NCBI GenBank assembly: GCA_902619105.1
Contig: CACNCV010000004.1
Location: forward strand, 1 to 64,000
DNA: 64,000 bases
Origin: an uncultured Pelagibacteraceae bacterium
GTDB taxonomy: Bacteria > Pseudomonadota > Alphaproteobacteria > Pelagibacterales > AG-422-B15
Reading direction: 5' to 3'
Shown here in pieces: positions 15,088-34,308 of this stretch. Numbering within the stretch: position 1 is the first letter of the stretch; every line of letters starts with the position of its first letter. Both the position numbers and the translations under genes were made by a program. The notes under the pieces were generated by a model that searched no databases, was not told the origin of the DNA, and was given only the letters and a program-made list of their open reading frames with translations.

Positions 15088-16256
15088 TGATATTTTCTAA
15101 AAGTGAGTATATTGAAAGACTAAATAAAGTAAAAAAATCAATGCAAGAAAAGGGTATTGATTTATTAATCTCTCAAGATACAGCAAACATAAATTACCTT
15201 ACCGGTTATGATGCATGGTCTTTTTATTATGCTCAATGTGTAATTATACATATAGACTCAGAAGAACCTTTACTTTTCGTACGTGATCAAGATGCTGGAG
15301 GGGCATTCCTTCAAAACTGCTGGTCACAAGAAAATATAATTGTATACGCTGAAAAATATATACATACATGGCCAAATCATCCTTATGATTATTTGATTGA
15401 AATAATTAAAAATAAAAATTGGGACAAACTTTCAATTGGACTTGAAATGGACAGTCATTATTTCACGGCATTTTGTTATAAAAAATTATTAGATGGGCTT
15501 CCTGATGCCACGTTGAAAGATTGTGAGCGCCTTGTGAATTGGGTACGATTTGTGAAATCAGATGCTGAAATTGATCTAATGAAAAACGCCGCTTTAATTA
15601 CTGATAAATCAATGCAAACTGCAATTGATGTTATCAATCCAGGTGTTAGACAATGTGATGCAGTTGGAGAGATACAAAAAGCAATGTTTTATGGAACTCC
15701 AGAGTATGGAGGAGAATATTCAAGTATAGCAACTTTACTTCCAACTGGAGCTGGGACTTCTGCCTCACATCTAACGGCTACGCAGGAAAGATTTGTTAAG
15801 GGCGAAGCAACAATAATTGAAATTGCCGGTGTTTATAAAAGGTATCATGCACCACTTGCAAGAACAGTTCTGCTTGGAAAAGCAGAACAAAAAAAAATTG
15901 ACGCCATACATGCAACTAATGAGGCGCTAAATGAGGGTATATCAGCCATAAAGCCAGGCAATACAGCAGATGATGTTGCGCAAAAATTTTGGGCAGTATT
16001 AGATAAATACGATATCAAAAAGGAATCTCGGACTGGATACTCTATTGGAATTGGTTATCCACCTGATTGGGGTGAGCACACAATAAACATATCAAAAGGT
16101 GATCCAACTATTTTACAGCCAAATGTAACCTTTCATATGATTGCTGTTATGCAATTTGGTGATTGGGGAGTAGAGGCAAGTCACTCATTACGTGTTACAG
16201 AAAGTGGCTCAGAAAAGTTTTCAGATTTCTCAAGCGATTTATTCATAAAAGAGTAG
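15087..16256 (+). CDS. M24 family hydrolase lacking metal ligands (EutD/DoeA- or creatinase-like)
   Basis: A 389-aa pita-bread fold protein: N-terminal creatinase domain (DLLISQDTANINYLTGYDAWSFYY) and C-terminal M24 domain. The two Asp of metallo-aminopeptidases are replaced (IIEIAGVYKRYHAPLARTV where D-x-G and S-D-x-T-R would be), and the G-H-G-I-G His motif reads SIGIGYPPDWGEHT. It is therefore probably metal-free, like creatinase and the ectoine hydrolase EutD/DoeA, with which the GYPPDWGE stretch agrees. It would open a C-N bond in a small osmolyte-like compound. Ectoine cannot be asserted because no DoeB-type partner is present; an M20 amidase overlaps it instead. Confidence 0.82.
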   Translation: MIFSKSEYIERLNKVKKSMQEKGIDLLISQDTANINYLTGYDAWSFYYAQCVIIHIDSEEPLLFVRDQDAGGAFLQNCWSQENIIVYAEKYIHTWPNHPYDYLIEIIKNKNWDKLSIGLEMDSHYFTAFCYKKLLDGLPDATLKDCERLVNWVRFVKSDAEIDLMKNAALITDKSMQTAIDVINPGVRQCDAVGEIQKAMFYGTPEYGGEYSSIATLLPTGAGTSASHLTATQERFVKGEATIIEIAGVYKRYHAPLARTVLLGKAEQKKIDAIHATNEALNEGISAIKPGNTADDVAQKFWAVLDKYDIKKESRTGYSIGIGYPPDWGEHTINISKGDPTILQPNVTFHMIAVMQFGDWGVEASHSLRVTESGSEKFSDFSSDLFIKE

Positions 16257-16265
16257 CAGATAACT

Positions 16266-16288
16266 GGGAATGAGCGTCCCTTGTTTTT
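16266..16288 (+). terminator. Weak terminator-like hairpin after the M24 gene
   Basis: GGGA (16266-16269) and TCCC (16277-16280) form a 4-bp stem with a 7-nt loop followed by TTGTTTTT. It sits 10 bp past the stop of the M24 gene in an 85-bp gap. The short stem makes this tentative. Confidence 0.4.
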
Positions 16289-16341
16289 ACTAGAGAATCC
16301 ATTAAATATTGTATAAAGTAGCGCAATTCACGGAGTTAATT

Positions 16342-16530
16342 ATGGGTATTCATCACGATTATAAATCAAAACGTGGGGAGAGAGCGATGGCCAAGCAGCA
16401 GAAACGTGAGGCTAAGTTTTCTGATAACACGGATAAAAAAGAAGAAGAAAAGCTCATCAAAGAATTAAAAAAAGCAGGGTTAAATAAAGATGAAATCAAA
16501 CAATTCCTCGAAGGAAGAGCAAAAGGATAA
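16342..16530 (+). CDS. Small basic protein, 62 aa
   Basis: The frame is open from 16309, but the ATG at 16342 has GGAG 8 bp upstream and is the better start (62 aa, MGIHHDYKSKRGERAMAK). A third candidate, ATG 16387, also has a purine-rich GGGGAGAG ahead of it and would give 47 aa starting MAKQQKREAK. The product is highly charged with an alpha-helical C-terminal half ([21 protein letters not shown]), cytoplasmic, and of unknown function. Small proteins like this occur in alphaproteobacterial genomes. Its end overlaps the next small gene in another frame. Confidence 0.65.
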   Translation: MGIHHDYKSKRGERAMAKQQKREAKFSDNTDKKEEEKLIKELKKAGLNKDEIKQFLEGRAKG

Positions 16531-16624
16531 AAAGCTCGACAGCACAGAAAGGCTTGCTGAGGCACTAAGGCAAAATTTAAGAAAAAGAAAAGAGTTTCAA
16601 AGAAGGCAAAAGAAAGAAGATTAA
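16490..16624 (+). CDS. Small basic helical protein, 44 aa
   Basis: ATG at 16490 to TAA at 16622-16624, overlapping the preceding small gene by 41 bp and ending 1 bp before dcd. The core [20 protein letters not shown] resembles a short conserved alphaproteobacterial protein with an ALRxNLRRRK stretch that often lies beside cell-wall or nucleotide genes, as here near dcd and murA. That recall is from memory of such genomes, not a search. The protein is too short for usual gene callers. It is likely RNA- or ribosome-interacting given its charge, but no function is known. Confidence 0.6.
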
Positions 16625-16625
16625 T

Positions 16626-17180
16626 ATGACAATCATGTCGGATAACTGGATAAAGAAAAAAGCCTTGGAAGAAGGAATGATTGAACCGTTCGTTGATGGA
16701 CAAAAAAAAGAAGGCACAATTTCTTTTGGTCTTTCATCATATGGATACGATGCAAGAGTTTCAGAAGAATTTAAAATTTTTACCAATGTAGATTCTGCTT
16801 TAGTCGATCCAAAAAACTTTGATGATAAGGGGTTTGTAGATCGGCCAGGTAAAGAATGCATAATTCCACCTAACTCATTTGCATTAGCAAGAACCGTTGA
16901 GTATTTTAGAATTCCTCGCGATGTTCTTGTAGTTTGTTTAGGAAAATCAACTTATGCAAGATGTGGCATTATCGTAAATGTTACTCCTCTTGAACCAGAG
17001 TGGGAGGGTCACGTAACTTTAGAATTTTCTAACACAACTCCATTACCTGCAAAAATTTATGCTAATGAGGGAGCGTGCCAGTTTTTATTCTATAAGGGAG
17101 AAGCGCCACCAGAAGTTTCATATAAAGATCGTAAAGGTAAATATATGATGCAAACAGGGGTTACTTTACCTAAGCTTTAA
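16626..17180 (+). CDS. dcd: dCTP deaminase
   Basis: A 184-aa trimeric enzyme converting dCTP to dUTP and ammonia in the dTTP pathway. Family landmarks are [41 protein letters not shown] (with the catalytic Glu) and [16 protein letters not shown]. The length is normal for Dcd. An ATG at 16635 ([19 protein letters not shown]) is an equally possible start and fits relatives well. It is followed after 7 bp by murA. Confidence 0.95.
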
Positions 17181-17187
17181 ATCGTTC

Positions 17188-18450
17188 ATGCAAAAGATAT
17201 TGATAAATGGAGGAAACCTTCTCCAGGGTTCTGTTCCTGTCAGTGGATCAAAAAATGCATCTCTCCCAATAATGGCCGCAAGTATTCTTACTAATGAAAA
17301 TTTAGAACTCGAAAACGTACCTGATTTAGTTGATGTAAATACAATGTCAGCAGTTTTATCATCGCTTGGTGTCAATGTTACAAAAAAAGATGTTAATACA
17401 AATCGTCTTACACTTCGTTATTCAGACTCTGAAAGTACAATAGCGGAGTACGATTTAGTTAGAAAGATGAGGGCTAGTATATTAGTTCTTGGGCCATTAC
17501 TTGCGCGTAAAAGGCACGCTAGCGTATCTCTTCCAGGGGGGTGCGCAATAGGTGCTCGACCAGTAGATTTGCACATAGATGCATTAACAAAACTTGGCGC
17601 AGCGTTTGAATTAGATGGTGGATATATTAAATGTAGCGCTCCTAATGGCTTAAAAGGAAATAAAATTAATTTTTCAAAAGTATCAGTAGGAGCTACTGAA
17701 AACATAATTATGGCTGCATCGCTTGCTCAAGGAGAAAGTGAAATTAGAAATATCGCAGTTGAGCCTGAGGTTATAGATCTTATTGATTGTCTTAATAAGA
17801 TGGGCGCTAAAATCGAATTAGGAGAAAACAGAAATGTTCACATTCAAGGCGTTGACCAGCTCCAAGGTGCTGTCCACTCAATTATCCCTGATCGCATAGA
17901 AGCAATCACATATATAATTGGAGGAACTATAATTGGTAACGATCTCAAGATTACAAATCTGAACCTTGAGCATATCAGCAATGTATTGGAATTATTGAAT
18001 GAGCTATCTATTAATTACTCAATGGGTGAGAATAGCATTATTGTTAATCAATCCGAGATCTCTGATGGTATTGATATTAGCACAATGGAATATCCAGGGT
18101 TTCCAACTGATGTACAAGCACAAATGATGGTTTTATTATCTCTTGGAAAATCTAAATCACAAATAACTGAAAACATTTTTGAAAACAGATTCATGCATGT
18201 TCCAGAACTAAACCGTATGGGCGCTAATATTGAAACCAAAGGGAAAACAGCAGTTATTAATCCATGCAAAGGGTTTATTTCAGCTCAAGTCATGGCAACT
18301 GATTTACGGGCCTCGGTAAGTTTAATTTTAGCTGGATTGGTTGCTAAAGGTGAAACAACATTGAACCGAATTTATCATCTTGATCGAGGTTATGAGAAAA
18401 TAGAGAAAAAATTGCAAGCTTGTGGTGCAGATATTCGGAGAATAAATTAG
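17188..18450 (+). CDS. murA: UDP-N-acetylglucosamine 1-carboxyvinyltransferase MurA
   Basis: A 420-aa EPT-fold enzyme that transfers enolpyruvate from PEP to UDP-GlcNAc, the first committed step of peptidoglycan synthesis. The substrate-binding Lys is in SGSKNASLPIMAASIL (residues 20-34). The catalytic, fosfomycin-target Cys is C119 in LPGGCAIGARPVDLH. FPTDVQAQMMVL and the C-terminal DLRASVSLILAG are further MurA blocks. It is followed by DUF2948 and hisD, a known alphaproteobacterial order. Confidence 0.97.
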   Translation: MQKILINGGNLLQGSVPVSGSKNASLPIMAASILTNENLELENVPDLVDVNTMSAVLSSLGVNVTKKDVNTNRLTLRYSDSESTIAEYDLVRKMRASILVLGPLLARKRHASVSLPGGCAIGARPVDLHIDALTKLGAAFELDGGYIKCSAPNGLKGNKINFSKVSVGATENIIMAASLAQGESEIRNIAVEPEVIDLIDCLNKMGAKIELGENRNVHIQGVDQLQGAVHSIIPDRIEAITYIIGGTIIGNDLKITNLNLEHISNVLELLNELSINYSMGENSIIVNQSEISDGIDISTMEYPGFPTDVQAQMMVLLSLGKSKSQITENIFENRFMHVPELNRMGANIETKGKTAVINPCKGFISAQVMATDLRASVSLILAGLVAKGETTLNRIYHLDRGYEKIEKKLQACGADIRRIN

Positions 18451-18455
18451 GATAA

Positions 18456-18878
18456 ATGAATCTTAATGCAATTGATACTGACGAGCTAAAAATTATCTCA
18501 ACCATACTTCAAGACGGACTTATTGAAGTAAACGATATCAAATATTTGCCATCAATTAGGTCATTTTTTCTTATGATTACTAGATTTATGTGGGAGGAAA
18601 AAATAGTAAATAAAGTAGATCAAAGAATAAAAGCAGTACTAAGCTTTGAAGATGTTTTATCGGTTTACTCAAAAAATATAGATCAATTGAACAAAAATAA
18701 GACACTAGAACTCGTAACTTTTAATTATTATCCTAACAATTCTAAAAATATAGAAATTGAATTGCTTTTCAAAAATGATGCAATTATAAAGCTCGAAACT
18801 GAAATAATAAGATGCAAGTTAGAAGATCAGGGTGAACCCTGGAATATTGAAAAAATAGAGAATGACAAAAATAATTAA
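18456..18878 (+). CDS. DUF2948 protein
   Basis: A 140-aa protein identified as DUF2948 by its pattern (LQDGLIEVNDIKYLP near the start, FEDVLSVYSKNID in the middle, EIIRCKLEDQGEPW at the end) and by its fixed place between murA and hisD in alphaproteobacteria. No signal peptide or membrane helix. Function unknown. It starts 5 bp after murA and overlaps hisD by 17 bp. Confidence 0.85.
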   Translation: MNLNAIDTDELKIISTILQDGLIEVNDIKYLPSIRSFFLMITRFMWEEKIVNKVDQRIKAVLSFEDVLSVYSKNIDQLNKNKTLELVTFNYYPNNSKNIEIELLFKNDAIIKLETEIIRCKLEDQGEPWNIEKIENDKNN

Positions 18879-20157
18879 TTCTGTAGATCAAAATTTTGAG
18901 AATGATTTTAATAATCTTCTCACAATGAACAGATCAAGTGACTCGGACGTTACTCAGACTGTGGCAGCGATCATTGAAGATATTAGAAAAAACGGAGATG
19001 AAGCGCTTTTGAAATATACTCATCAATTTGATAAAAATAGCCTTGATATTAACAACATATTGCTTGAAGAAGATGAAATTGAAAGGCAATCACGTGACGT
19101 GCCGAGTGATCTTTGTGATGCGCTTAAAGTATCAATGGATCGTGTTCGCACTTATCATGAAAAGCAATTACCGAATGATTTAGTTTATGAAGACAATCTT
19201 AACTCAAAGTTAGGATATGTTTGGCGTCCAGTTGAGTCAGTGGGTGTTTATGTCCCAGGTGGTACTGCAAGTTATCCAAGTACAGTAATTATGAACACAA
19301 TACCAGCGGTTGTAGCCGGTGTTGAAGATATCACCATGGTTACACCAATGACTAATACCGCTATAAGTTCTTCAGTGTTATATGCCGCAAAAATTTGTGG
19401 AATAAAAAAAATATACTGTATAGGAGGTGCCCAGGCTGTTGCTGCTCTGGCATATGGAACCAAGACCATAAAACCTGTTAATAAAATTGTTGGACCAGGC
19501 AATATTTATGTTGCTGAAGCAAAAAGACAAGTTTCAGGTTTCATAGGCATCGATATGTTTGCCGGCCCATCAGAGGTAGTCATTATTGCTGATGAAAAAA
19601 ATGATCCAAAAATTGTTGCAGCCGACCTCATTGCTCAAGCTGAACATGACCAAAGCGCACAAAGTATACTTTTAACAACCGATCAGAAATTAGGAGATGC
19701 TGTAAATAAAGAAGTCGAGAACCAGATAGATTCCCTTCCTCGAAAGGATATAGCGGCTTCAAGCTGGGAAAATAATGGAAAGATAATTATCACTCAAAAT
19801 CTTGAAGAAGCTGTTTTATTATCTAATAAATTAGCACCAGAACACTTGGAATTATTAGTTGATAATCCGGAAGATATTCTTAAAAGAATAAAAAATGCTG
19901 GAGCAGTTTTTATGGGCCGTAACACACCTGAGGCACTTGGAGACTATTTAGCAGGTCCAAGCCATGTACTTCCCACTTCTAGAAGCGCTAAATTTTCTTC
20001 TGGACTATCTGTTTTTGATTTTCTCAAAAAAATATCACTTGTTGAATTTTCAAAAGAAGGTATTGAACAAGTTGGAGATAGTGCTATTAAAATCGCAGAT
20101 AATGAAGGTCTTGACGGGCATTCAAGATCAATAGAATATAGGCTTACAAAAAAATAA
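18862..20157 (+). CDS. hisD: Histidinol dehydrogenase
   Basis: A 431-aa zinc enzyme that oxidises L-histidinol to L-histidine in two NAD-dependent steps, the end of histidine synthesis. Landmarks: GVYVPGGTASYPSTVIMN, KIVGPGNIYVAEAKRQV, FAGPSEVVIIAD, AEHDQSAQSILL and the C-terminal GLDGHSRSIEYR. It begins inside the DUF2948 gene, with infA 3 bp downstream. It is physically separate from the hisS-hisZ-hisG group but within 3 kb of it. Confidence 0.96.
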   Translation: MTKIINSVDQNFENDFNNLLTMNRSSDSDVTQTVAAIIEDIRKNGDEALLKYTHQFDKNSLDINNILLEEDEIERQSRDVPSDLCDALKVSMDRVRTYHEKQLPNDLVYEDNLNSKLGYVWRPVESVGVYVPGGTASYPSTVIMNTIPAVVAGVEDITMVTPMTNTAISSSVLYAAKICGIKKIYCIGGAQAVAALAYGTKTIKPVNKIVGPGNIYVAEAKRQVSGFIGIDMFAGPSEVVIIADEKNDPKIVAADLIAQAEHDQSAQSILLTTDQKLGDAVNKEVENQIDSLPRKDIAASSWENNGKIIITQNLEEAVLLSNKLAPEHLELLVDNPEDILKRIKNAGAVFMGRNTPEALGDYLAGPSHVLPTSRSAKFSSGLSVFDFLKKISLVEFSKEGIEQVGDSAIKIADNEGLDGHSRSIEYRLTKK

Positions 20158-20160
20158 TTT

Positions 20161-20379
20161 ATGTCAAAAGAAGAAATACTAGAGTTCAAGGGTAAGGTTA
20201 CAGATTTACTTCCCAACGCAATGTTTAAGGTAGAGTTAGAAAATGGCCATGAAGTATTAGCACATACAGCAGGAAGAATGAGAAAAAATAGAATCAGAGT
20301 ACTTGCCGGGGATGAGGTTCTTGTTCAGGTTACACCTTACGATCTAACCAAAGGCAGAATAATATTTCGATATAAGTAG
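20161..20379 (+). CDS. infA: Translation initiation factor IF-1
   Basis: A 72-aa single S1/OB-fold protein that binds the ribosomal A site during initiation. Sequence blocks [38 protein letters not shown] and [12 protein letters not shown] are those of bacterial IF-1 at its standard length. It starts 3 bp after hisD and is followed by maf, as in other alphaproteobacteria. Confidence 0.97.
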
Positions 20380-20391
20380 TTTGAGATTATT

Positions 20392-20958
20392 TTGAAGCTA
20401 ATTCTAGGCAGCGCATCTCCACGAAGACTTGAGTTATTGGCAAAACTTAACATTAATCCAAGTGAGATAGTTTCCCCAAATATAGATGAGTCCATTAAAA
20501 GTAATGAGCTACCTCTTCAATATTGTAAACGTATAGCACATGAGAAACTAAAACATTTTCAAAATAAGTATAAAGACTCAGTAATTTTAACTGCTGATAC
20601 GATTGCCTATACTGGTAGAAAACTCATAGATAAAACAGATGACGAAAATATTGCTTATAAAAACTTACTTCGACTATCGGGAAAAAGACATAGAGTCAGC
20701 ACTTCCATTTGTATAAGAAATCTAGAAAATAGAATATTTAAAAAAACCGTTACGACAGTTGTTAGTTTTAAAGTATTAAGCGGTCAAGATATAGAAGATT
20801 ATATGAAAACTAATGACTGGCAAGGTGTTGCAGGGTCATATAAAATTCAAGGGATGGCAGAGTCTTTTATCAAATCCCTAAATGGATCTTACTCAAATGT
20901 AGTCGGTTTACCCTTATTTGAAGTCAAAAATCTCCTTATTTCAGCTGGATATAAATGA
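20392..20958 (+). CDS. maf: Maf family nucleotide pyrophosphatase
   Basis: A 188-aa Maf protein, a house-cleaning hydrolase of non-canonical or pyrimidine nucleoside triphosphates. The P-loop-like N-terminus LILGSASPRRLELLAKL, the metal-binding ILTADTIAYTGRKL and the middle block RLSGKRHRVSTS are characteristic. The start is TTG at 20392 because no ATG precedes the conserved N-terminus. Its last codon overlaps the next gene by 4 bp. Confidence 0.93.
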   Translation: MKLILGSASPRRLELLAKLNINPSEIVSPNIDESIKSNELPLQYCKRIAHEKLKHFQNKYKDSVILTADTIAYTGRKLIDKTDDENIAYKNLLRLSGKRHRVSTSICIRNLENRIFKKTVTTVVSFKVLSGQDIEDYMKTNDWQGVAGSYKIQGMAESFIKSLNGSYSNVVGLPLFEVKNLLISAGYK

Positions 20959-21311
20959 TTGAATTAATTTTTATTTATAATGCAAAAAGTGGTATCGGAA
21001 ATGCCTTTATAGATTGGGCGCATAAAATAATATCGCCAAAAACTTATGACTGCAACTTATGCTCAATTACATACAATAATTTAGGTAAAGAAATAAAGTG
21101 GAAAGAATTTCTTAATAATATAAATGCACATAGCCGATTTTACTATATTGATCATCTAAAAGAACTTGATTTTGTTGATGAGAAAACAGAGCTACCATGT
21201 GTTTTTATTAATGAGAAGGATGAATTTAAATTAATAATTAATTCCCATGAGATGAATTCATTTGATAATGTTGACCAATTAATCAGTAGATTAAAGGTTT
21301 TTCTGGATTAA
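20955..21311 (+). CDS. Hypothetical protein, 118 aa
   Basis: A soluble 118-aa protein coupled to maf by a 4-bp ATGA overlap. It begins with a hydrophobic strand (MIELIFIYNAKSG) and contains DCNLCSITYNN, a Cys-x2-Cys that could bind a metal or form a redox pair, then FYYIDHLKEL and PCVFIN. I have an impression of similar uncharacterised proteins elsewhere with the pattern of a strand, Cys-x2-Cys and a Thr/Tyr-rich stretch, some loosely labelled GTPase, but no P-loop is visible here. Function unknown. Confidence 0.75.
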   Translation: MIELIFIYNAKSGIGNAFIDWAHKIISPKTYDCNLCSITYNNLGKEIKWKEFLNNINAHSRFYYIDHLKELDFVDEKTELPCVFINEKDEFKLIINSHEMNSFDNVDQLISRLKVFLD

Positions 21312-21331
21312 CTGTATTCAGAATATTTTCT

Positions 21332-21360
21332 TTGCACGAATTAATGTTATAGAATAAAAG
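21332..21360 (+). promoter_or_regulatory. Candidate promoter for the tRNA pair
   Basis: TTGCAC (21332-21337), a 17-bp spacer and TAAAAG (21355-21360) place a transcription start about 14 bp before tRNA-Phe. The -10 is poor (4 of 6), so this is tentative. Confidence 0.35.
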
Positions 21361-21380
21361 ACTAGGATCACTAATTAAAT

Positions 21381-21456
21381 GGCTCGATAGCTCAGTTGGT
21401 AGAGCAAAGGACTGAAAATCCTTGTGTCGGTGGTTCAATTCCACCTCGAGCCACCA
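21381..21456 (+). tRNA. tRNA-Phe (GAA)
   Basis: A 76-nt cloverleaf: acceptor stem GGCTCGA/TCGAGCC, D-arm with AGTTGGTAGA, anticodon loop CTGAAAA with GAA, T-arm GGTGG-TTCAATT-CCACC, discriminator A, and an encoded CCA end. Five bases separate it from tRNA-His, so the two are probably one transcript. Confidence 0.97.
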
Positions 21457-21461
21457 CTTAT

Positions 21462-21538
21462 GCAGCTGTAGCTCAGTTGGTTAGAGCGCCTGGTTGTGGT
21501 TCAGGAGGTCGGTAGTTCGAATCTACCCAGCTGTACCA
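21462..21538 (+). tRNA. tRNA-His (GTG), alphaproteobacterial type without G(-1)
   Basis: A 77-nt cloverleaf with anticodon GTG and T-arm GGTAG-TTCGAAT-CTACC; CCA is encoded. Acceptor strands GCAGCTG and CAGCTGT pair with a G1-U72 wobble. The base before G1 is T, and the discriminator is A73. Most bacteria encode G(-1) opposite C73. Loss of that pair with U72/A73 is known from a group of Alphaproteobacteria whose HisRS co-evolved. The 3' 16 bases overlap the reverse-strand MFS gene. Confidence 0.96.
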
Positions 21539-22713
21539 GTAATTACTTTTTTTACAGGTAGAGTTAATACAATCAGAAACATAATTATCATCACAAACCC
21601 AAAAGCTAAGTAGAGTACACCAAATTCACCCGTTAAATTATAGCTTCTCGAAATCATGATCAGTGCAATAGGACCAACTGTAAAAGATACAATAAATTTA
21701 ATACCGTAGACTAGGCTTTGATATTTTTCAGGTGAAAATTTTGCAAGTAATAAATTTTCTGCAGGCAGTATACTTGAATTAAAAGCAACGATTGCAAGAC
21801 TTATTGCAATTAACCAGTAATTTGAAAGACTAACAATTAAGAGCAAGAGGAGTCCTTGGCCAACTATTCCAATTGAATAAATCAGCTTTTCAGAATATTT
21901 ATCTGTTAAAATACCTCCAACATAATTCATTAAACCACTTACAATATATATCGCGGCAACTATGTAGCCGATATCTGAAGTAGATAAATCAAGACTATCA
22001 GTAAGTCTGATATCAATTGCCTTTGGAAGACTTGTCTGAAGAATTTGATAAACAAAGCTTAAACATGTAATACTTAACAGCATAATAATTGCAATTTTTA
22101 GCATCTGATTTTTTTCAGGATTATCTTTAAACTGCTCTGAAGATATATTCTTTAATGATATTTTTCCTGATTTAAGATGATAGGTTAGACTTAGTCCAAC
22201 TACTAATGAGATCAATCCGGGCAGCATAAAGGCAGCTTGCCAATTAAATTGTTCAATTAATACACCCGCAAAAAAGGCACCTAATCCAATGCCTACTCCC
22301 CCAAAAATATTATTAAAGCCAAGCGCTTTACCAGTTTCCTTTGAAGTGTTAACAACCCATGAAATTCCAGCGGGGTGATAGATAGCGCAAAACAATCCAA
22401 GCAATGATAAACTGATAAATAAAGAAACTTTATTTCCGCTCAAGCCACATAATAATGAACTAATTCCCAAGCCAATGAACATAATTGCAATCATTCCAGA
22501 ACGACTCCATCTGTCACTGATCCATCCAGCAGGAAGGGCTCCCAAACCCACAAGTAAAGATCCTAAAAACCAAAGATTTAGTAATTCATCGTAGCTAAGC
22601 TTCCAGTCGTCTTCAATTGCTAGAACTATAACAAAATAGAATGCAGCAAACATATGCATTAGTAAGTGACCTAAGGCGGCATACGTGACTGTTAATTTGC
22701 TATCATTTTCCAT
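21523..22713 (-). CDS. MFS transporter
   Basis: A 396-aa major facilitator with 12 hydrophobic segments and the MFS loop-2/3 motif GWISDRWSRSG. The central cytoplasmic loop (about residues 185-205) is short. It resembles small-molecule exporters, but the substrate is not readable. The coding end runs 16 bp into the 3' end of tRNA-His on the opposite strand: codons for T-A-G and the TAG stop come from tRNA sequence. It diverges from the histidine leader and hisS. Confidence 0.87.
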   Translation of the reverse strand: MENDSKLTVTYAALGHLLMHMFAAFYFVIVLAIEDDWKLSYDELLNLWFLGSLLVGLGALPAGWISDRWSRSGMIAIMFIGLGISSLLCGLSGNKVSLFISLSLLGLFCAIYHPAGISWVVNTSKETGKALGFNNIFGGVGIGLGAFFAGVLIEQFNWQAAFMLPGLISLVVGLSLTYHLKSGKISLKNISSEQFKDNPEKNQMLKIAIIMLLSITCLSFVYQILQTSLPKAIDIRLTDSLDLSTSDIGYIVAAIYIVSGLMNYVGGILTDKYSEKLIYSIGIVGQGLLLLLIVSLSNYWLIAISLAIVAFNSSILPAENLLLAKFSPEKYQSLVYGIKFIVSFTVGPIALIMISRSYNLTGEFGVLYLAFGFVMIIMFLIVLTLPVKKVITGTAG

Positions 22714-22797
22714 AACTACTTTCGATAAAAATAGTGCAATTATTATAAACTTTAAGAAAAATTTAAAATTATTTGACTTTTATTAATAAATAAGGCA

Positions 22798-22884
22798 TTT
22801 CAGCTCCATGTTTAAATTTAAACATCATCACTATCATATCTAAGTTCGCTGAAAAAAACAATCAGCGGGCAATAACCCCTTTTT
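22798..22884 (+). promoter_or_regulatory. Candidate histidine transcription attenuator of hisS-hisZ-hisG
   Basis: Four RNA segments can form mutually exclusive pairs. Segment 1 UUUCAGC (22798-22804) pairs over 7 bp with segment 2 GCUGAAA (22848-22854). CGCUGA (22847-22852, segment 2) pairs over 6 bp with segment 3 UCAGCG (22862-22867), extendable by two U-G pairs. Segment 3 GGG (22867-22869) can pair with segment 4 CCC (22876-22879), followed at once by UUUUU, a weak terminator. A ribosome stalled on the leader His codons would leave segment 2 free to hold segment 3, giving read-through. One finishing at the leader stop would cover segment 2 and permit termination. The 3:4 stem is short, so it may act with U-run pausing. 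Confidence 0.65.
22808..22843 (+). CDS. hisL: Histidine leader peptide MFKFKHHHYHI
   Basis: ATG TTT AAA TTT AAA CAT CAT CAC TAT CAT ATC TAA: an 11-residue frame with four His in five codons, 89 bp before hisS. It resembles the enteric his leader peptide, which also has Phe-Lys ahead of the His run. No in-frame alternative start lies between it and the upstream stop at 22787. The ribosome binding site is weak (AAGG about 12 bases upstream). Its function would be to report charged tRNA-His through stalling. The first 18 bp also form a perfect palindrome, which is explained by the codon choice. Confidence 0.7.
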   Translation: MFKFKHHHYHI

Positions 22885-22932
22885 ATATTAAATAAACACA
22901 CTTTGTAGTATCTTACTTACAGTGGGAGTAAA

Positions 22933-24321
22933 ATGAGTAAAATTAAAAATAATCCAAAGGCAATTTTGCCGAAGGGTTTTAAAGACAGTGACATTGAAAT
23001 TTTAAATCTTAGAAAAAAAGTTTCTAAGATAATAGAGAAGGAATGTCTAAAGTATGGATTTATTGAATTAGATACATCCACAATTGAATATACTGAGAGC
23101 ATTGGTAAGTTTCTTCCTGATGTAGACAGGCCTAGTGGAGGTGTATTTTCATTTCAAGACGATGATGAGAAATGGCTATCACTGAGATATGACTTAACGG
23201 CCCCCTTAGCAAGATACGTAGCTCAAAATTATCAAGACCTCGTTAAGCCATTTAAACGTTATCAATCAGGACTAGTTTGGAGAAATGAAAAACCAGGACC
23301 AGGTAGATACAGAGAATTTTTTCAGTTTGATGCTGACGTAGTGGGAGTTGATTCAACACTAATTGATGCAGAGCTGTGTGTAATGGTATGTGATATTTTA
23401 ATTGAGCTTGGCCTAAATACGTCACAATTTGAAATAAAATTTTCAAATCGGGAAATTTGGACAGAACTTTTTTTGAACTTAGATGTTAAAGAGGACGATT
23501 TACCAAAAATTCTTAGAGCAGTAGATAAAAAAGATCGATTAGGTATAGAGGGCGTTAATGAGTTGCTTCAAAAAGGAAGAAAAGATGTATCTGGTGACTT
23601 CATGGAGGGCGTGGGCTTAAGCGAGACAGATGCTGATAAAATTATTTCTTTTATAACCAATTCAAACCAATCAAACGCCCAGATGGAAGAATTCAACTCC
23701 TATATAAAAAATTTCCCAGATTATCCAATTCGTTTTGACTCATCAGTTGTTCGCGGTCTCGACTATTACACTGGAATGATTTTTGAAGCAGAGCTTCTTG
23801 TTGATATTAAAAATGAGAAAGGCGAAAAAATTGTATTTGGATCAGTTGCTGGCGGTGGAAGATATGACAGACTTATTTCAAGATTTGGGAAAGAGGATGT
23901 TCCAGCTACTGGTATATCTATAGGTGTTGATAGATTAATTGTAGCGTTAAATCAATTAGACCTTTTAGATAATAAGAAAAATCCATTAGTGGTAATTGCA
24001 AATTTAGACAATCAAAATATGCCGGATTATATTTCAATGGCTAAAGAAATTAGAAATGAAGGTATTGCATGTGAAATATCATTTGGATCTAAAAATCTTG
24101 GAAAGCAATTAAAGTATTGCGATCGCAAAGGTGCGGATATTGTGATCATTGCTGGTGATGAAGAGTTAAAAAAGGGTGAAATATCAATTAAGGATTTAAA
24201 TAAAGGTAAAGAGGTTTCAAAAGATATTGTCGATAGAGACAAATGGAAAGAGGCAAAAGCTGGACAACAAACAATTAATCGCTCTGACCTGATGACAGCA
24301 TTAAATGAAATTTTGAATTAA
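22933..24321 (+). CDS. hisS: Histidyl-tRNA synthetase, alphaproteobacterial type
   Basis: A 462-aa class II synthetase charging tRNA-His. Motif 2 reads WRNEKPGPGRYREFFQFDAD, the GPGR form seen in alphaproteobacterial HisRS and different from the enteric RHERPQKGR form. RYDLTAPLARYVA, RGLDYYTGMIFE and the motif 3 region ATGISIGVDRL follow, then the anticodon-binding domain (about 360-462). Its divergent type fits the local tRNA-His lacking G(-1) and carrying U72/A73. GGGAG lies 5 bp before the start. hisZ follows after 6 bp. The leader at 22798-22884 probably controls the set. Confidence 0.96.
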   Translation: MSKIKNNPKAILPKGFKDSDIEILNLRKKVSKIIEKECLKYGFIELDTSTIEYTESIGKFLPDVDRPSGGVFSFQDDDEKWLSLRYDLTAPLARYVAQNYQDLVKPFKRYQSGLVWRNEKPGPGRYREFFQFDADVVGVDSTLIDAELCVMVCDILIELGLNTSQFEIKFSNREIWTELFLNLDVKEDDLPKILRAVDKKDRLGIEGVNELLQKGRKDVSGDFMEGVGLSETDADKIISFITNSNQSNAQMEEFNSYIKNFPDYPIRFDSSVVRGLDYYTGMIFEAELLVDIKNEKGEKIVFGSVAGGGRYDRLISRFGKEDVPATGISIGVDRLIVALNQLDLLDNKKNPLVVIANLDNQNMPDYISMAKEIRNEGIACEISFGSKNLGKQLKYCDRKGADIVIIAGDEELKKGEISIKDLNKGKEVSKDIVDRDKWKEAKAGQQTINRSDLMTALNEILN

Positions 24322-24327
24322 AATAAA

Positions 24328-25455
24328 ATGTCACTTCAAGAATTAAATATCAATTTAAAGAATTATTTTATTAAGTCTGGATTTAATTATATTGAACTTC
24401 CATTGCTGTTTGATGCGGATATATTTTTTGAAACTTCAGGTGAAGAAATTAGAAGAAAGATGTATTCGTTTACTGATACTTCAGGAAAAGAAAAATGTTT
24501 GAGACCAGACATGACTGTACCAACATGTCAAAATTTTATTGAAAGTAATAATAAATCCAGTGAGTCAAAGTTATGTTACAGCGGTCCTGTATTCAGATCA
24601 TCCAATGAGTTATCAAATAATTCCATTGAATTAAATCAGTCTGGTATTGAGATCATTTTTTCTGAAAAAAATTTAAATAATATACATGAGATGGATGCGT
24701 ACATTTTAAAGACAGCTGAAGATACAATGTGTCAATTAAATATTGATAACTATAAAATTAAAATTGGTAGCATTAAACTATTTAATCAGTTTATCAACAA
24801 ATTAGAGCTGCCAATTAGATGGAAACAGAGATTAGTAAGACATTTTTTTAGAAGAAAATATTTCGGGAGTTTACTTGATAGGTTGGGTGAAGGTGTAGGG
24901 TATGATAATGAAAAAAAGCATAGCATGCTTCAAGAAAAATTTAATATAGATGACGTATCTGACAAAGGCTTGACAGATTTAATTAATAAACAAAATGCTC
25001 GAGGATTAGGTGCTCGAACTGTTAAGGAAATAGTTGATCGATTTCAATTAAAAAGCCTTAATGTAATAAGTCAGAAAGATGGAAAAAAAATTGTTGATTT
25101 AATAAATAATTTTTTAAAATTAAGTTGTAACCTTTCGGAATTTCCATCACTGCTTCGCGAATTTACTAAATCAAATAATGTTTCTTCGTTTGAGAGTGAA
25201 GTAGAGGAAATGGAGAATTTTGTGAATGCTGTATCAGAAAAAAGTAATATAGAAAAATATTATTTTGATAATGACTTTGGTCATTCAATTGAATTCTATG
25301 ACGGCATGATGTTTGAAATTTATAATCCTGATAATCAAAGTGAATTAATTAGTGGAGGGCGGTATGATAAATTGCTTATAGATTTAGGCTCTAAATCGAA
25401 CTTATCAGCAGTAGGATTTGCAACTAATAATAACAATATAATTGAGCTGATTTAG
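24328..25455 (+). CDS. hisZ: ATP phosphoribosyltransferase regulatory subunit HisZ
   Basis: A 375-aa HisRS paralogue without tRNA-charging ability, which with short HisG forms the first enzyme of histidine synthesis and carries its feedback control. The class II core is visible (CLRPDMTVPTCQNF, FRSSNELSNNSIELNQSGIEI, GHSIEFYDGMMFEI, SGGRYDKLL), but the C-terminal anticodon-binding domain is absent. It lies between hisS and hisG with gaps of 6 and 2 bp. Confidence 0.92.
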   Translation: MSLQELNINLKNYFIKSGFNYIELPLLFDADIFFETSGEEIRRKMYSFTDTSGKEKCLRPDMTVPTCQNFIESNNKSSESKLCYSGPVFRSSNELSNNSIELNQSGIEIIFSEKNLNNIHEMDAYILKTAEDTMCQLNIDNYKIKIGSIKLFNQFINKLELPIRWKQRLVRHFFRRKYFGSLLDRLGEGVGYDNEKKHSMLQEKFNIDDVSDKGLTDLINKQNARGLGARTVKEIVDRFQLKSLNVISQKDGKKIVDLINNFLKLSCNLSEFPSLLREFTKSNNVSSFESEVEEMENFVNAVSEKSNIEKYYFDNDFGHSIEFYDGMMFEIYNPDNQSELISGGRYDKLLIDLGSKSNLSAVGFATNNNNIIELI

Positions 25456-25457
25456 GA

Positions 25458-26159
25458 ATGAATATACAAAATAAACTTCGGATTGCATTGCCAAGTAAAG
25501 GTAGATTGAGAACAGACATGGAGTCTTTGTTTGAAGAAAAAAAAATAATTTTTAGTAATCTTGAAAATGATAGAGAGTATATTGCAGCAATAGAGGGTCT
25601 TGATAATGCAATTGTTTATTTCTTAAGTGCTAAAGAAATTACAAATCGACTTGATGAAGGATCCATTCATGTTGGTTTAACTGGTGACGATTTAGTACAA
25701 GAAAAAATAACTAATTATAACCAGAAGGTTTCAAAAAAACTTAAGTTAAATTTTGGTAAAGCAAATTTAGTTGTTGCTATACCAGAAATATGGATTGACG
25801 TAATGACAATGGCCGACTTAGAAGAAATCTGCCATTTGCACAGAACTAAATTCTCTAAAAGACTAAGAGTTGCAACAAAGTATAAGAATTTAACAAATGA
25901 ATATTTTTCAAATTGTGGGGTTGTTGATTATAGGACTGTAGAAAGTGATGGATCAACCGAGAGCGCTCCATTCAATGGCTTTGCAGAAATAATTACTGAC
26001 ATCACATCATCAGGAGAAACATTAAGAGCTAATAATCTAAGAGTACTTGATGATGGACTTATACTAGAGTCGTCTGCAAACATTTTTACTTCAAATGTAG
26101 CTGAGTGGAATAAAAATTTAGAAAATACACTCAATTATTTTATAGATAGGATTTCATAA
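25458..26159 (+). CDS. hisG: ATP phosphoribosyltransferase catalytic subunit HisG, short form
   Basis: This 233-aa enzyme joins ATP and PRPP, the first step of histidine synthesis. LRIALPSKGRLRTDME, HVGLTGDDLVQEK, the ATKYKNLTNEYF block and the PRPP-binding ESDGSTESAPFNGFAEIITDITSSG-like region identify HisG. It lacks the C-terminal regulatory domain of long HisG, as expected with HisZ next to it. A strong bidirectional terminator begins 1 bp after its stop. Confidence 0.95.
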   Translation: MNIQNKLRIALPSKGRLRTDMESLFEEKKIIFSNLENDREYIAAIEGLDNAIVYFLSAKEITNRLDEGSIHVGLTGDDLVQEKITNYNQKVSKKLKLNFGKANLVVAIPEIWIDVMTMADLEEICHLHRTKFSKRLRVATKYKNLTNEYFSNCGVVDYRTVESDGSTESAPFNGFAEIITDITSSGETLRANNLRVLDDGLILESSANIFTSNVAEWNKNLENTLNYFIDRIS

Positions 26160-26160
26160 A

Positions 26161-26187
26161 AAAACCCGGCTAGGCCGGGTTTTTTTA
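26161..26187. terminator. Bidirectional rho-independent terminator between hisG and groEL
   Basis: AAAACCCGGC (26161-26170) and GCCGGGTTTT (26174-26183) form a perfect 10-bp stem with a 3-nt loop. T7 follows on the forward strand and a matching A-run precedes it, so it can stop both hisG and convergent groEL transcripts. It is the only strong terminator I see in the window. Confidence 0.95.
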
Positions 26188-26209
26188 GATTAGCTTTAAT
26201 GAGCTCAAC

Positions 26210-27874
<1,665 letters not shown>

Positions 27875-27881
27875 TTAATAT

Positions 27882-28196
27882 TTATTTTTTCTTTTTTGAT
27901 TTAGATTTTGTATCTATAACGCCCATGATGTCTGACTCTTTCATAATACAGAGTTCTTCACCATCAACCTTTACTTCTGTTCCAGACCACTTACCAAAAA
28001 GAACGATATCGCCAACCATTAGATCAAGCGGTGTTACTTTACCATCTTCACTTTTAGTTCCATTTCCGACGGCTACAATTTGGCCTTCTTGAGGTTTTTC
28101 CTGAGCAGTGTCTGGTATGATAATACCGCCTGCCGTTTTCTCTTCAGTATCCAGTCTTCTAACGAGTACACGATCGTGTAAAGGTCTAAAATTCAT
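27882..28196 (-). CDS. groES: Co-chaperonin GroES with a basic C-terminal tail
   Basis: A 104-aa co-chaperonin: [29 protein letters not shown], the mobile loop that docks on GroEL, and [33 protein letters not shown]. Typical GroES ends near that Ile; here about ten residues, [10 protein letters not shown], are added. AGGAGA precedes the start. Expression probably depends on the promoter at 28242-28270. Confidence 0.97.
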
Positions 28197-28241
28197 GTCT
28201 TAATCTCCTAAATATGTTTGCACAAAGCTTAATTACCTAGG

Positions 28242-28270
28242 CATATAGTGATCTAGGGCAAGTGTGTCAA
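28242..28270 (-). promoter_or_regulatory. groESL promoter, RpoH-like or housekeeping
   Basis: On the reverse strand CCCCTTGACA (TTGACA at 28265-28270), a 17-bp spacer and TATATG (28242-28247). CTTGAC plus ACTATAT also approaches the alphaproteobacterial heat-shock RpoH pattern (CTTGAC, about 17 bp, CYTATNT). I find no CIRCE inverted repeat (TTAGCACTC-N9-GAGTGCTAA), so HrcA control is unlikely. Confidence 0.65.
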
Positions 28271-28323
28271 GGGGTGGAAAAAATTTTGGAATTATTAAAA
28301 AAACGAGTATTTTCAATAATTTG

Positions 28324-29091
28324 CTATTGTTCTGATTCACCGCCATCAATTACGATGTTTTGACCAGTCATAAAAGATCCAGCTTCAGAAGCCAAATATA
28401 CTGCAGCGCCTGCAATTTCGTCAGGCATTCCTATCCTTTTTAAAGCTGCTTTGGCAGTCATAGATTTTAAAATACTCTCGTTCTCCCATAAAGCTCTGGC
28501 AAAATCAGTTTTTATTAAACCGGGTGAGATACAATTTGCACGAATATTATCTCTTCCATATTCCACTGATATATTTCTTGCCAACTGGGAATCCGCAGCT
28601 TTTGATATAGCATAAGCACCCAACATGCTGTTGCCGCGCAAACCTGCGATCGAGGAAATAATTATAATTGAACCATTTTTCATTTTGATCATATCTGGGA
28701 GTACCTCATTACAGAGCCAAAAATTACTTTGCACGTTTGACTTCATTATTTTTTCAAACGCCTCGTCAGGTATATTATTTGATGGTCCAAAATATGGATT
28801 GATTGCAGCATTACATACAAGAGTGGAAATATTGCCACAGAAGTCTAACGATTTTTTGTAAAGATTTTTTAATTGCTCTTTGTCCGAAATATTACATGAA
28901 ATTGCCGTTGCATGTCCCTCTCCAAATGTATCATTTATCTCTTTAGCGACTGCTTCACATGCATCAAGCTTTCGACTTGTGATAATGACTTTTGCACCAT
29001 GCTCTGCCATTCTGTAGGCTATAGCTTTGCCTATTCCTCTCGAAGATCCTGTGATTATAGCATTTTTACCTTTTAGGTTAAAAAGTGTCAT
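28324..29091 (-). CDS. SDR family oxidoreductase
   Basis: This 255-aa short-chain dehydrogenase has the Rossmann motif GSSRGIGKAIA (residues 15-25), a catalytic Ser in IIISSIAG and Y-x3-K in YAISKAA. The ending GSFMTGQNIVIDGG is the usual classical SDR C-terminus. It reduces or oxidises a carbonyl/alcohol with NAD(P). Substrate unknown; it could serve acyl or sugar metabolism. It stands alone, 64 bp divergent from the HAD gene. Confidence 0.9.
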   Translation of the reverse strand: MTLFNLKGKNAIITGSSRGIGKAIAYRMAEHGAKVIITSRKLDACEAVAKEINDTFGEGHATAISCNISDKEQLKNLYKKSLDFCGNISTLVCNAAINPYFGPSNNIPDEAFEKIMKSNVQSNFWLCNEVLPDMIKMKNGSIIIISSIAGLRGNSMLGAYAISKAADSQLARNISVEYGRDNIRANCISPGLIKTDFARALWENESILKSMTAKAALKRIGMPDEIAGAAVYLASEAGSFMTGQNIVIDGGESEQ

Positions 29092-29155
29092 TTAATAAAA
29101 TATCATAATAATTTATAAGAAGATTATAAATTTATAGGATAATTTCAATATAATT

Positions 29156-30010
29156 ATGGAAATTAAAAAAATCGTAAGTGCTACTGAATTTTCACTTTCT
29201 TATAGAATCATACTTTGTGATCTTTGGGGCGTTATTCATAATGGTGTTGAAGTATTCTCTAATGCAAAATCCTATCTTGAGGCAATGAAGGAAAATAATA
29301 TTGATGTTTATTTGATTTCTAATGCCCCGAGACCTGAAGCAGTAGTAAGAAATGGATTAATAAATAAACTTAATCTCAATCCTGAATTATTTAAAAAAAT
29401 TTATACTTCAGGCGATACAGGCACGCAGTACATAAATTCTAAAGTTCATGGACAATCATATTATCATTTGGGACCAGAAAAAGATTATGATTTGTTAGAA
29501 AATATTAATATCGAAAAAACTAATGACATAGAGTCCTCAGAATTTGTTGTCTGTACAGGCTTATATAATGACAACGATGAACACCCAGAAGACTATAAAA
29601 ATATTTTTGAGGATTTTCTTAAACAAAATTTAGAAATAGTATGTGTTAATCCAGATGAAATAGTCTACCGAGGTCAGGCTCGCATATATTGTGCAGGCGC
29701 TCTTGGAAAATATTACGAAAAACTAGGAGGTAAAGTAACTTACTACGGAAAACCTTATCCAGAAATATATGATTTTGTAATGACTGATTTATTGTCTAAA
29801 GATACAACAAATAAAAAAGAAATATTAGCTATAGGCGATAGCCTTAAAACAGATTGCTTAGGGGCACACAACTCGGATTTAGATTTTTTATTTATAAAAA
29901 ATGGTATTCATAAAACTGAAATTGCAAATGATGACGATTTAGTAAGAATATCAAAAGCTAATTTACCTGAAACTTGCAAAACTCTAATGTATACTGAAAT
30001 TTTAAATTAA
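29156..30010 (+). CDS. TIGR01459 family HAD hydrolase
   Basis: A 284-aa HAD-superfamily phosphatase. The nucleophile motif I is ILCDLWGVIHNG, with Trp after Asp-Leu as in the TIGR01459 class-IIA group, then motif II VYLISNAPR, a Lys in YYGKPYPEIY, and motif IV AIGDSLKTDCLGA. Members often sit next to ribF in alphaproteobacteria, and ribF follows 7 bp downstream here, suggesting a link to riboflavin or flavin phosphate metabolism (inference). Confidence 0.88.
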   Translation: MEIKKIVSATEFSLSYRIILCDLWGVIHNGVEVFSNAKSYLEAMKENNIDVYLISNAPRPEAVVRNGLINKLNLNPELFKKIYTSGDTGTQYINSKVHGQSYYHLGPEKDYDLLENINIEKTNDIESSEFVVCTGLYNDNDEHPEDYKNIFEDFLKQNLEIVCVNPDEIVYRGQARIYCAGALGKYYEKLGGKVTYYGKPYPEIYDFVMTDLLSKDTTNKKEILAIGDSLKTDCLGAHNSDLDFLFIKNGIHKTEIANDDDLVRISKANLPETCKTLMYTEILN

Positions 30011-30017
30011 TTAAAAA

Positions 30018-30977
30018 ATGAAAGTTTTTAAAAGTTTAAATAGAAGATCATTAAATTATACAAAGAATTCTGTATTAATTATTGGAAATCTTGATGGAGT
30101 TCATAAAGGGCACCAATCAATAATTAATTCAGCAAAAAAAATTGCAAATAAACAAAAAACAAAAATAGGTGTGTTACTTTTTGATCCGCATCCACGGAAA
30201 TATTTTAACAAAAATATTAAAAGTTTCTTATTAACAGAGTTGAACGAACGTCTCGAAATCTTAAAATCTTACGGTATCGATTATGCAATAATAATAAAAT
30301 TTAATAAAAGAATATCCTCTATGACACCTAATGACTTTTGTAAAAAAATATTACTTAGAGGAATATCAATGAAATATATTTTAGTTGGTAAAAATTTTAA
30401 ATTTGGTAATAAACGATCAGGCGACTATAAGTTTCTTCTTAATTTTGGTAAAGAAAATCAATTTTACGTAAACCCAGTGAAATTATTAAAAACACCAAAT
30501 CATCTTTTTAATAAAACAAAGATGAAAATATATTCGTCTACAAATATTAGAAAACTTATTTCAAACGGTAATGTAAAATTGGCAAAAAATTTTTTGGGAA
30601 ACAATTTTAGTATAACGTCAAAAGTTATAAAAGGAGATCAACGAGGCCGAAAAATTGGTGTTCCAACTGCTAATCTAAATATAAATGAATACGTGGCACC
30701 AAAATATGGAGTATATGCTATTGAAGCCTCATTCCTTAAAAATTCAAAGAAAAGAACTCTGAAAGGAATTGCGAATTTTGGTATCAGACCAACATTTCAT
30801 AAGAACACTGAAATTTTAGAAGTTCATCTATTTAGATTTAAATTGAATATTTATAATTCTTTGCTAAAAGTCGACTTTGTTGAATTTATAAGGCATGAAA
30901 AGAAATTTTCAGGAGTAGAGGCCTTAAAAAAACAACTAAAATCAGATATATCTAAAGCACAGAAAATTCTAAATTAA
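30018..30977 (+). CDS. ribF: Bifunctional riboflavin kinase/FAD synthetase
   Basis: This 319-aa protein makes FMN then FAD. The N-terminal adenylyltransferase has GNLDGVHKGHQSI (residues near 23-35) and VLLFDPHPRKYF; the C-terminal kinase begins around KGDQRGRKIGVPTANLNI and ends with the DFVEFIRHEKKFSGVEAL block. It is first of ribF-ileS-lspA-DUF3035, spaced by 5 bp from ileS. The protein is unusually rich in Lys/Asn, matching the AT-rich genome. Confidence 0.94.
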   Translation: MKVFKSLNRRSLNYTKNSVLIIGNLDGVHKGHQSIINSAKKIANKQKTKIGVLLFDPHPRKYFNKNIKSFLLTELNERLEILKSYGIDYAIIIKFNKRISSMTPNDFCKKILLRGISMKYILVGKNFKFGNKRSGDYKFLLNFGKENQFYVNPVKLLKTPNHLFNKTKMKIYSSTNIRKLISNGNVKLAKNFLGNNFSITSKVIKGDQRGRKIGVPTANLNINEYVAPKYGVYAIEASFLKNSKKRTLKGIANFGIRPTFHKNTEILEVHLFRFKLNIYNSLLKVDFVEFIRHEKKFSGVEALKKQLKSDISKAQKILN

Positions 30978-30982
30978 GCAAA

Positions 30983-33796: not shown

Positions 33797-34308
33797 TACA
33801 AACCATTGGAAGATTTATATTTTTAATACTAGTTATTTTTGCAGCTGATCAACTCTCAAAGTTTTATGTAATCAATGTTTATAACATTGATGTATCAAAT
33901 CTCAGTTCACAATATTTAACATCAATAAATAAATATCTTAATTTTCACTTGATATGGAATAAGGGCTTTGCATTTGGAATATTTCAAAATGAAATTTCGA
34001 TGGTTAATTATATTTTTATGTTTGTTATGGCCATAATTGCTATAGCAGTATTTTTTTATGCAATAAGTATTAATAAAAAAATTTATTATTATGGATTTAG
34101 TTTAATTATAGGAGGAGCGTTGGGTAACTTGCTCGACAGATATCAATATTCTGCCGTATTAGACTTTATAGATTTACATTATAACAATTATCATTGGTAT
34201 GTATTCAATATAGCTGATATAAGTATCACGCTTGGCTGTATTTTGATTATTTTACTTGAGTTGTTCTCAAAAAAAGAAAATGATAAGACCGTTAAAAATG
34301 ATACGTAA
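33793..34308 (+). CDS. lspA: Lipoprotein signal peptidase LspA
   Basis: A 171-aa inner-membrane aspartic peptidase that cleaves prolipoproteins at the lipidated Cys. Four membrane segments are visible; the catalytic Asp pair is in GGALGNLLDRY and WYVFNIADISI, and the N-terminal FAADQLSKFYV motif is conserved. It overlaps ileS by 4 bp and the downstream DUF3035 lipoprotein gene by 11 bp, so enzyme and a client are co-expressed. Confidence 0.95.
   Translation: MIQTIGRFIFLILVIFAADQLSKFYVINVYNIDVSNLSSQYLTSINKYLNFHLIWNKGFAFGIFQNEISMVNYIFMFVMAIIAIAVFFYAISINKKIYYYGFSLIIGGALGNLLDRYQYSAVLDFIDLHYNNYHWYVFNIADISITLGCILIILLELFSKKENDKTVKNDT

Follow-up and report, generated by a model that had tools for sequence, protein, structure and literature searches.

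The question raised by this locus is whether a short reading frame rich in histidine codons, situated ahead of the hisS-hisZ-hisG operon, encodes a regulatory leader peptide and, if so, how its translation could control the genes behind it. The frame lies in a stretch of 64,000 nt from a member of SAR11, hereafter the window, and an earlier note on the same DNA had described it as a histidine attenuator of the enteric type. The description of the frame itself was accurate: it comprises 11 codons (ATG TTT AAA TTT AAA CAT CAT CAC TAT CAT ATC TAA), encodes MFKFKHHHYHI, carries four His codons in five positions, and ends 89 nt before the hisS ATG (Table 1). The A73 and the missing G-1 of the tRNA-His are, according to the accessible part of PMC3937112, known for most SAR11. 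In the window, the tRNA-His gene stands beside a tRNA-Phe gene (21381-21538 for the pair), and an MFS-type gene is located between tRNA-His and the leader. Among the 1141 short ATG-initiated frames of the window, the leader was the only one with four His in five codons. Twenty shuffled windows contained two frames of this kind, which corresponds to approximately 0.1 expected per window; the frame by itself is therefore only suggestive, and the proof lies in its conservation.

Table 1. Features of the hisS locus (positions are those of the window)
Feature	Position	Strand	Remarks
hisD	18862		
tRNA-His(GTG)	21462..21538	+	A73, no G-1 (from sequence)
Predicted leader promoter	22773..22801	+	TTGACT 22773-22778; conserved GGCATTTC 22794-22801 as -10 region
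Leader ORF	22808..22843	+	
Conserved 9-bp hairpin	22844..22870	+	22844-22852 paired with 22862-22870; first base directly after leader stop
ACCCC-U5	22875..22884	+	CCCC begins five nt past the hairpin
TAGTAT	22906..22911	+	possible -10 of a hypothetical internal hisS promoter; by eye
GGGAG, Shine-Dalgarno-like, of hisS	22924..22928	+	
hisS, histidyl-tRNA synthetase	22933..24321	+	TIGR00442 372 bits (cut-off 287)
hisZ-like, ATP phosphoribosyltransferase regulatory subunit	24328..25455	+	best in family, below curated cut-offs: NF008953 282 bits (cut-off 384), TIGR00443 157 bits (cut-off 272)
hisG	25458..26159	+	TIGR00070 165 bits (cut-off 76); 233 aa, from which presumably the short form
Terminator-like site, operon end	26157..26187	+	14 pairs and T-run; yardstick for an ordinary intrinsic terminator of the genome

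The hisS loci were compared in two families of the same order, namely the family of the window (f1; SAR11, AG-422-B15 type), which we take to be SAR11 clade II, and a sister family (f2), presumably Pelagibacteraceae proper. A hisS match was obtained in 45 of 53 f1 genomes, one of which (G038) contained only a C-terminal piece and was left out. The leader was found in all 44 f1 genomes with full-length hisS, both by direct reading of the loci and with a covariance model. The model (R1) was built from part of f1, so its matches within this family confirm the presence of the element without being independent; in the search of the order, it matched 44 of 397 genomes, every one in f1, and a search of the class gave 1/190, namely the window itself. 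The length of the f1 leader was constant at 11 codons, and the frame was kept. Alignment of the regions upstream of hisS in the relatives demonstrated that codon 10 was His in all 29 distinct f1 leader sequences, codons 6 and 7 in 28 each, and codon 8 in 25, with codons 2-5 and 9 being variable. Judged by this conservation, the leader peptide is real, and the view that a His-codon leader precedes hisS-hisZ-hisG holds throughout the f1 genomes compared.

Conservation was also observed for the RNA behind the frame. The 6-bp pairing pointed out earlier (CGCTGA 22847-22852 with TCAGCG 22862-22867) extends to a hairpin of 9 bp, and its stem bases covary in the f1 alignment. Over 19 distinct sequences, 100% of the cells were paired, a value reached by none of 500 shuffles. 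Two-sided changes affected four pairs (8 of 500 shuffles as high) and 23 cells; the number of two-sided cells and the covariation score were each reached by 0 of 500 shuffles, and the number of further pair types in the 19 sequences did not exceed that of the shuffles. In the window, the hairpin was better than all 200 shuffles (z -3.69). When 17 f1 sequences were folded jointly with RNAalifold from the leader to hisS, the 9-bp stem was the sole structure. A separate inverted repeat was noticed near the hisS start in L042-L045, L025, and L038-L041, with letters changing between lineages (e.g., GUAUCA..UGAUAC, AGUACU..AGUACU, and AGUAUC..GAUACU); it is weak in the clade of the window and absent from the RNAalifold consensus.

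The ACCCC tract was invariant over the 19 aligned f1 sequences and was followed by U-rich sequence, and neither the alignment nor RNAalifold revealed an RNA partner for it in f1. No U-tract directly follows the stem of the f1 hairpins. In the window, the tail AAUAACCC does not provide the immediate U-tract that, together with a GC stem, defines an intrinsic terminator, and the hairpin was not among the 13 terminator-like sites detected in 14000-33999; the same genome does have an ordinary terminator-like site after hisG. The motif ACCCCYTWTWTW was tried as a general terminator of the genome, with an outcome that says little either way: it had five matches, the window element itself was unmatched, and the three forward matches look like coding sequence. 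Within 18000-30000, no match to the Rfam His_leader model was obtained even with E values up to 1, and five f2 loci gave none at the gathering score, and no covariance-model match to a T-box riboswitch was obtained in either set.

In f2, hisS was sought in 40 genomes (G053-G063 and every tenth from G070 to G350). Matches were obtained in 36 of them, in G280 only through a short hisZ-like match, which left 35 hisS loci. Every locus contained a short ATG-initiated ORF with at least two His codons, a hairpin at this ORF, and then tRNA-His; the loci are related, and the 35 are therefore not 35 independent events. The f2 leaders were 19-33 codons long. Their hairpins, which were sought only near the last His codon, abutted a His codon in all 35 cases, starting at 0 (21 loci), -1 (6 loci), or -2 nt (8 loci) relative to its end, and the stop codon lay 6-31 nt past the hairpin start. 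In f2, the distance between His codon and hairpin is held, and that between stop and hairpin is not. Taken singly, these hairpins surpassed their shuffles only moderately, with between 0 and 15 of 100 shuffles matching them, and the hairpin types did not align in register. At least five U within the 8 nt after the hairpin were present in 17 of the 35 loci; the remaining 18 had no immediate U-tract.

The gap between the CCA of tRNA-His and the hisS ATG was 3-5 nt in 34 f2 loci and 7 nt in one. A box of the TATAAA, GATAAA, GATAAT, or TATAAG type ended 10-15 nt before tRNA-His in all 35; among shuffled 32-mers, 30% held a box anywhere and only 5.6% at 10-14 nt, which makes an internal promoter plausible; the TAGTAT before hisS in the window may be compared with this box. 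Several f2 loci likewise have a tRNA-Phe gene ahead of the leader, and the simplest reading of both families would be one ancestral order of tRNA-Phe, leader, tRNA-His, and hisS. The tRNA-His bodies of f2 diverge, with simple global alignment scores of 0.51-0.56 of the window's in L095, L096, L098-L100, L103, and L105, and the ends GC...GUACCA are kept despite this divergence. ARAGORN reported no tRNA-His in 6 of 30 f2 upstream stretches (in L101, the start was misplaced). In these genomes with divergent tRNA-His, HisS is 41-46% identical to that of the window, which poses the question of co-divergence or replacement of the tRNA-synthetase pair.

The region upstream of the leader pointed to a promoter at a fixed distance. 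In all 45 f1 loci, which represent 44 genomes with two of the loci being the window itself, TTGAC preceded the leader ATG, by 35 nt in 25 of them and by 36 nt in the other 20. A GGCATTT-like block was located 7-8 nt upstream of the ATG. A Shine-Dalgarno-like motif within 15 nt of the start was detected for the leader in only 1 of the 45 loci, whereas it preceded hisS in 31. From the fixed distance, the 5' end of the RNA is predicted to be at or near the leader ATG (~22808), and the leader would thus be leaderless. Of 30 f2 leaders, 25 had TTG and ATG 34-37 nt apart; L081 and L084 were spaced otherwise, and the TTG pattern was not matched in L089, L091, and L101. Shine-Dalgarno-like motifs were present in 3 of these 30 leaders, which is slightly against a leaderless start.

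We consider it very probable that some leader control sensing His-tRNA exists at these loci. As for its mechanism, the sequences suggest that the ribosome itself masks the hairpin, a reading to which we assign a probability of about 0.5: a stall at the hairpin-proximal His codon would open an "off" hairpin and thereby raise transcription of hisS-hisZ-hisG, together with tRNA-His where this gene follows the leader. The RNA would start at or next to the leader ATG, and the ribosome would therefore load at its 5' end before RNA polymerase has moved far away. Pausing and termination would be favored by the hairpin; termination would be intrinsic in some clades, and Rho may assist it in the family of the window. 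If charged tRNA-His is short, whether histidine, synthetase, or tRNA is lacking, the ribosome would wait at the His codon nearest to the hairpin, cover part or all of the 5' arm, and hold the hairpin open, so that transcription continues into the operon. If charged tRNA is ample, the ribosome would clear the site, the hairpin would form, and the share of read-through would drop; an internal promoter may give a basal level.

The f2 loci are informative as to the target of such control. The neighbor of the leader is a tRNA gene there; translation initiation of that gene therefore cannot be the target, which is most simply transcription. Masking at the proximal His codon would explain why the hairpin is held at a constant spacing from this codon but not from the stop. 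A ribosome reaches approximately 16 nt from the first base of the P-site. With this reach, a ribosome at codon 10 of the f1 leader would occupy the RNA to ~22848 and thus part of the 5' arm; in f2, one waiting at the proximal His codon would shield all of the arm. Several points count against masking, beginning with the missing immediate U-tract of the f1 hairpins and of the 18 f2 hairpins. In f1, the hairpin would stay accessible during a stall at the first three His codons and would be covered once the ribosome stood at the stop; both fit the opposite logic. In addition, the invariant ACCCC is left unexplained by the model, and internal -10-like boxes may bypass the element.

The opposite logic is that of an antiterminator, in which the hairpin would be the "on" structure, formed when the ribosome stalls at the initial His codons; once it has reached the stop, it would mask the 5' arm, and a Rho-dependent or unrecognised terminator further on would end transcription. 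The start of the f1 hairpin on the base after the stop agrees with this reading, since the 2:3 stem of trp attenuators likewise begins roughly after the stop. The lack of a U-tract after the f1 hairpin and the C-rich, unpaired ACCCC point in the same direction, and Rho dependence has been proposed, in the accessible text of PMC1262725, for leaders without other attenuator elements. However, the His codon always abuts the hairpin in f2 at variable distances of the stop, and an antiterminator needs no such abutment. Folding with the 5' arm masked was compared in 13 f1 sequences. In L001, L018, and L024, the rest folded at -4.0 kcal/mol; in ten more distant sequences (L025, L030, L033, L038, L039, and L041-L045), values of -3.3 kcal/mol (once) and -1.9 to 0 kcal/mol (nine times, four of them at 0) were obtained, so that no stable competing structure was found in the latter. 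We regard an antiterminator as possible, although rather unlikely.

A post-transcriptional role, in which translation of the leader and the hairpin govern cleavage, stability, or tRNA maturation and not transcription, appears improbable. The close junction of tRNA-His and hisS in f2 and the poor U-tracts of the hairpins are consistent with it, but f1 retains both leader and hairpin without an intervening tRNA gene. As an observation on the same junction (L081-L110 and L175-L179), the translation of hisS in f2 may depend on 3' processing of tRNA-His.

The enteric scheme of the earlier note, in which pairing 2:3 alternates with 1:2 and with a GGG:CCC-U5 terminator (3:4), is very unlikely to apply. 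All three complementary sets do occur in the letters of the window and of close relatives such as L018; the hairpin alone exceeds chance expectation, and the other two are unsupported. Pairing 1:2 (TTTCAGC 22798-22804 with GCTGAAA 22848-22854) is complete in L001 and L018, and L024 retains the GGG together with a 5-nt remnant of it. In the ten more distant f1 sequences, neither the first pairing nor the GGG is present: for segment 1 there are only other matches of 4-6 nt (6 in L039), and the GGG is missing from all ten. The 3:4 stem of the window (GGG 22867-22869 with CCC within 22876-22879, followed by T5 at 22880-22884) had a folding energy of -4.0 kcal/mol and a z of -0.72, with 45 of 200 shuffles equally good. 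The predicted -10 region overlaps the start of segment 1; since the transcript is predicted to begin near the leader ATG, this segment probably lies in promoter DNA. What the loci share with classical attenuators is the short upstream ORF with cognate codons, predicted to be translated, which is present in 44 of 44 f1 and 35 of 35 f2 loci; mutually exclusive antiterminator and terminator stems were not found in f1, where a single stem is conserved. Finally, a functional, non-regulatory His-rich peptide (e.g., metal-binding) encoded by the small ORF is hardly credible: the frame is conserved, but codons 2-5 and 9 vary in f1, the length is 11 codons there and 19-33 in f2, and what stays constant is the location ahead of hisS together with the adjoining hairpin.

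Outside the order, 178 of 181 genomes had a hisS match, and none of the 28 best-scoring loci, from other Alphaproteobacteria, had a convincing His leader. ORFs with at least three His in L149, L151, L154, and L173 were judged not to be leader-like, with TTG/GTG starts or scattered His. In the genome of the window itself, with a crude choice of starts, pheS showed no Phe leader, and neither trpE nor a second trpE-like gene showed a Trp leader; no ilvB-type match was obtained, and the leuA-like gene scored below the family cut-off. By eye, a tRNA-like sequence ends ~10 nt before a trpE-like ORF of this genome (L182), which represents another close tRNA-gene junction.

SAR11 bacteria rank with the most numerous cells on Earth, and to our knowledge few of their regulators have been described. 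Here HisRS, the entry step of histidine synthesis and, in one family, also tRNA-His seem to be jointly under a minimal switch coupled to translation. We tentatively propose that one leader peptide across the SAR11 order may control a tRNA gene, its synthetase, and the first enzyme of the pathway, acting as a charged tRNA-His homeostat that relies on one hairpin, masked by the ribosome, on a leaderless RNA. Since such a leader would respond to the absolute amount of charged tRNA, it could also compensate when the tRNA itself is scarce, which a T-box could not. If the proposal is true, processing of the tRNA 3' end in f2 would set free a hisS mRNA with almost no leader and thereby couple synthetase output to that of the tRNA. 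In the literature searched, which covered few subscription papers, no leader peptide was found ahead of a tRNA-synthetase pair, nor one ahead of hisS in SAR11. An earlier survey of Pelagibacter RNAs contained, in its accessible part, a table of candidate intergenic regions from which those containing tRNA or rRNA had been removed, so a leader beside a tRNA would probably have escaped it (PMC2704228). A leader before a tRNA-synthetase pair thus appears to be a new variant, synthetase leaders themselves being known. With this element, both the control of a tRNA gene by a leader and a leader switch pared down to one hairpin could be put to the test.

Several known systems resemble the proposed control in part. 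In pyrBI attenuation of E. coli, the ribosome directly masks the termination hairpin and no antiterminator is needed; the proposed SAR11 model shares this masking, whereas pyrBI senses UTP via polymerase pausing and not charged tRNA. The leader of the enteric his operon, which we take to be Rfam His_leader (RF00514), likewise combines a His-rich short ORF, an adjoining hairpin, and downstream his genes; in contrast, the SAR11 element has one hairpin, no antiterminator/terminator switch was found in it, hisS comes first, and it is predicted to be leaderless. His leader peptides have been described in Bacilli before hisS* and hisZ (PMC2965389) and, like the SAR11 leader, place a His-codon ORF before a hisS-family gene. 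They differ in belonging to another phylum and in having come from a screen for premature intrinsic terminators, and the accessible text of that study mentions no tRNA gene in between. Leader peptides on pheST, trpS, and leuS also place a synthetase operon under its own cognate codons, and the suggestion in the earlier note that such an arrangement is unusual was therefore too strong; as presented in the available portion of PMC1262725, these are classical attenuators, whereas in SAR11 no terminator switch was recognised and a tRNA gene can join the unit. Similar in its start is trpL of Sinorhizobium meliloti, an alphaproteobacterial leader ORF whose ATG is the 5' end of the RNA, as predicted for SAR11; it differs, according to the accessible text of PMC7298713, in responding to Trp and in forming two mutually exclusive structures.
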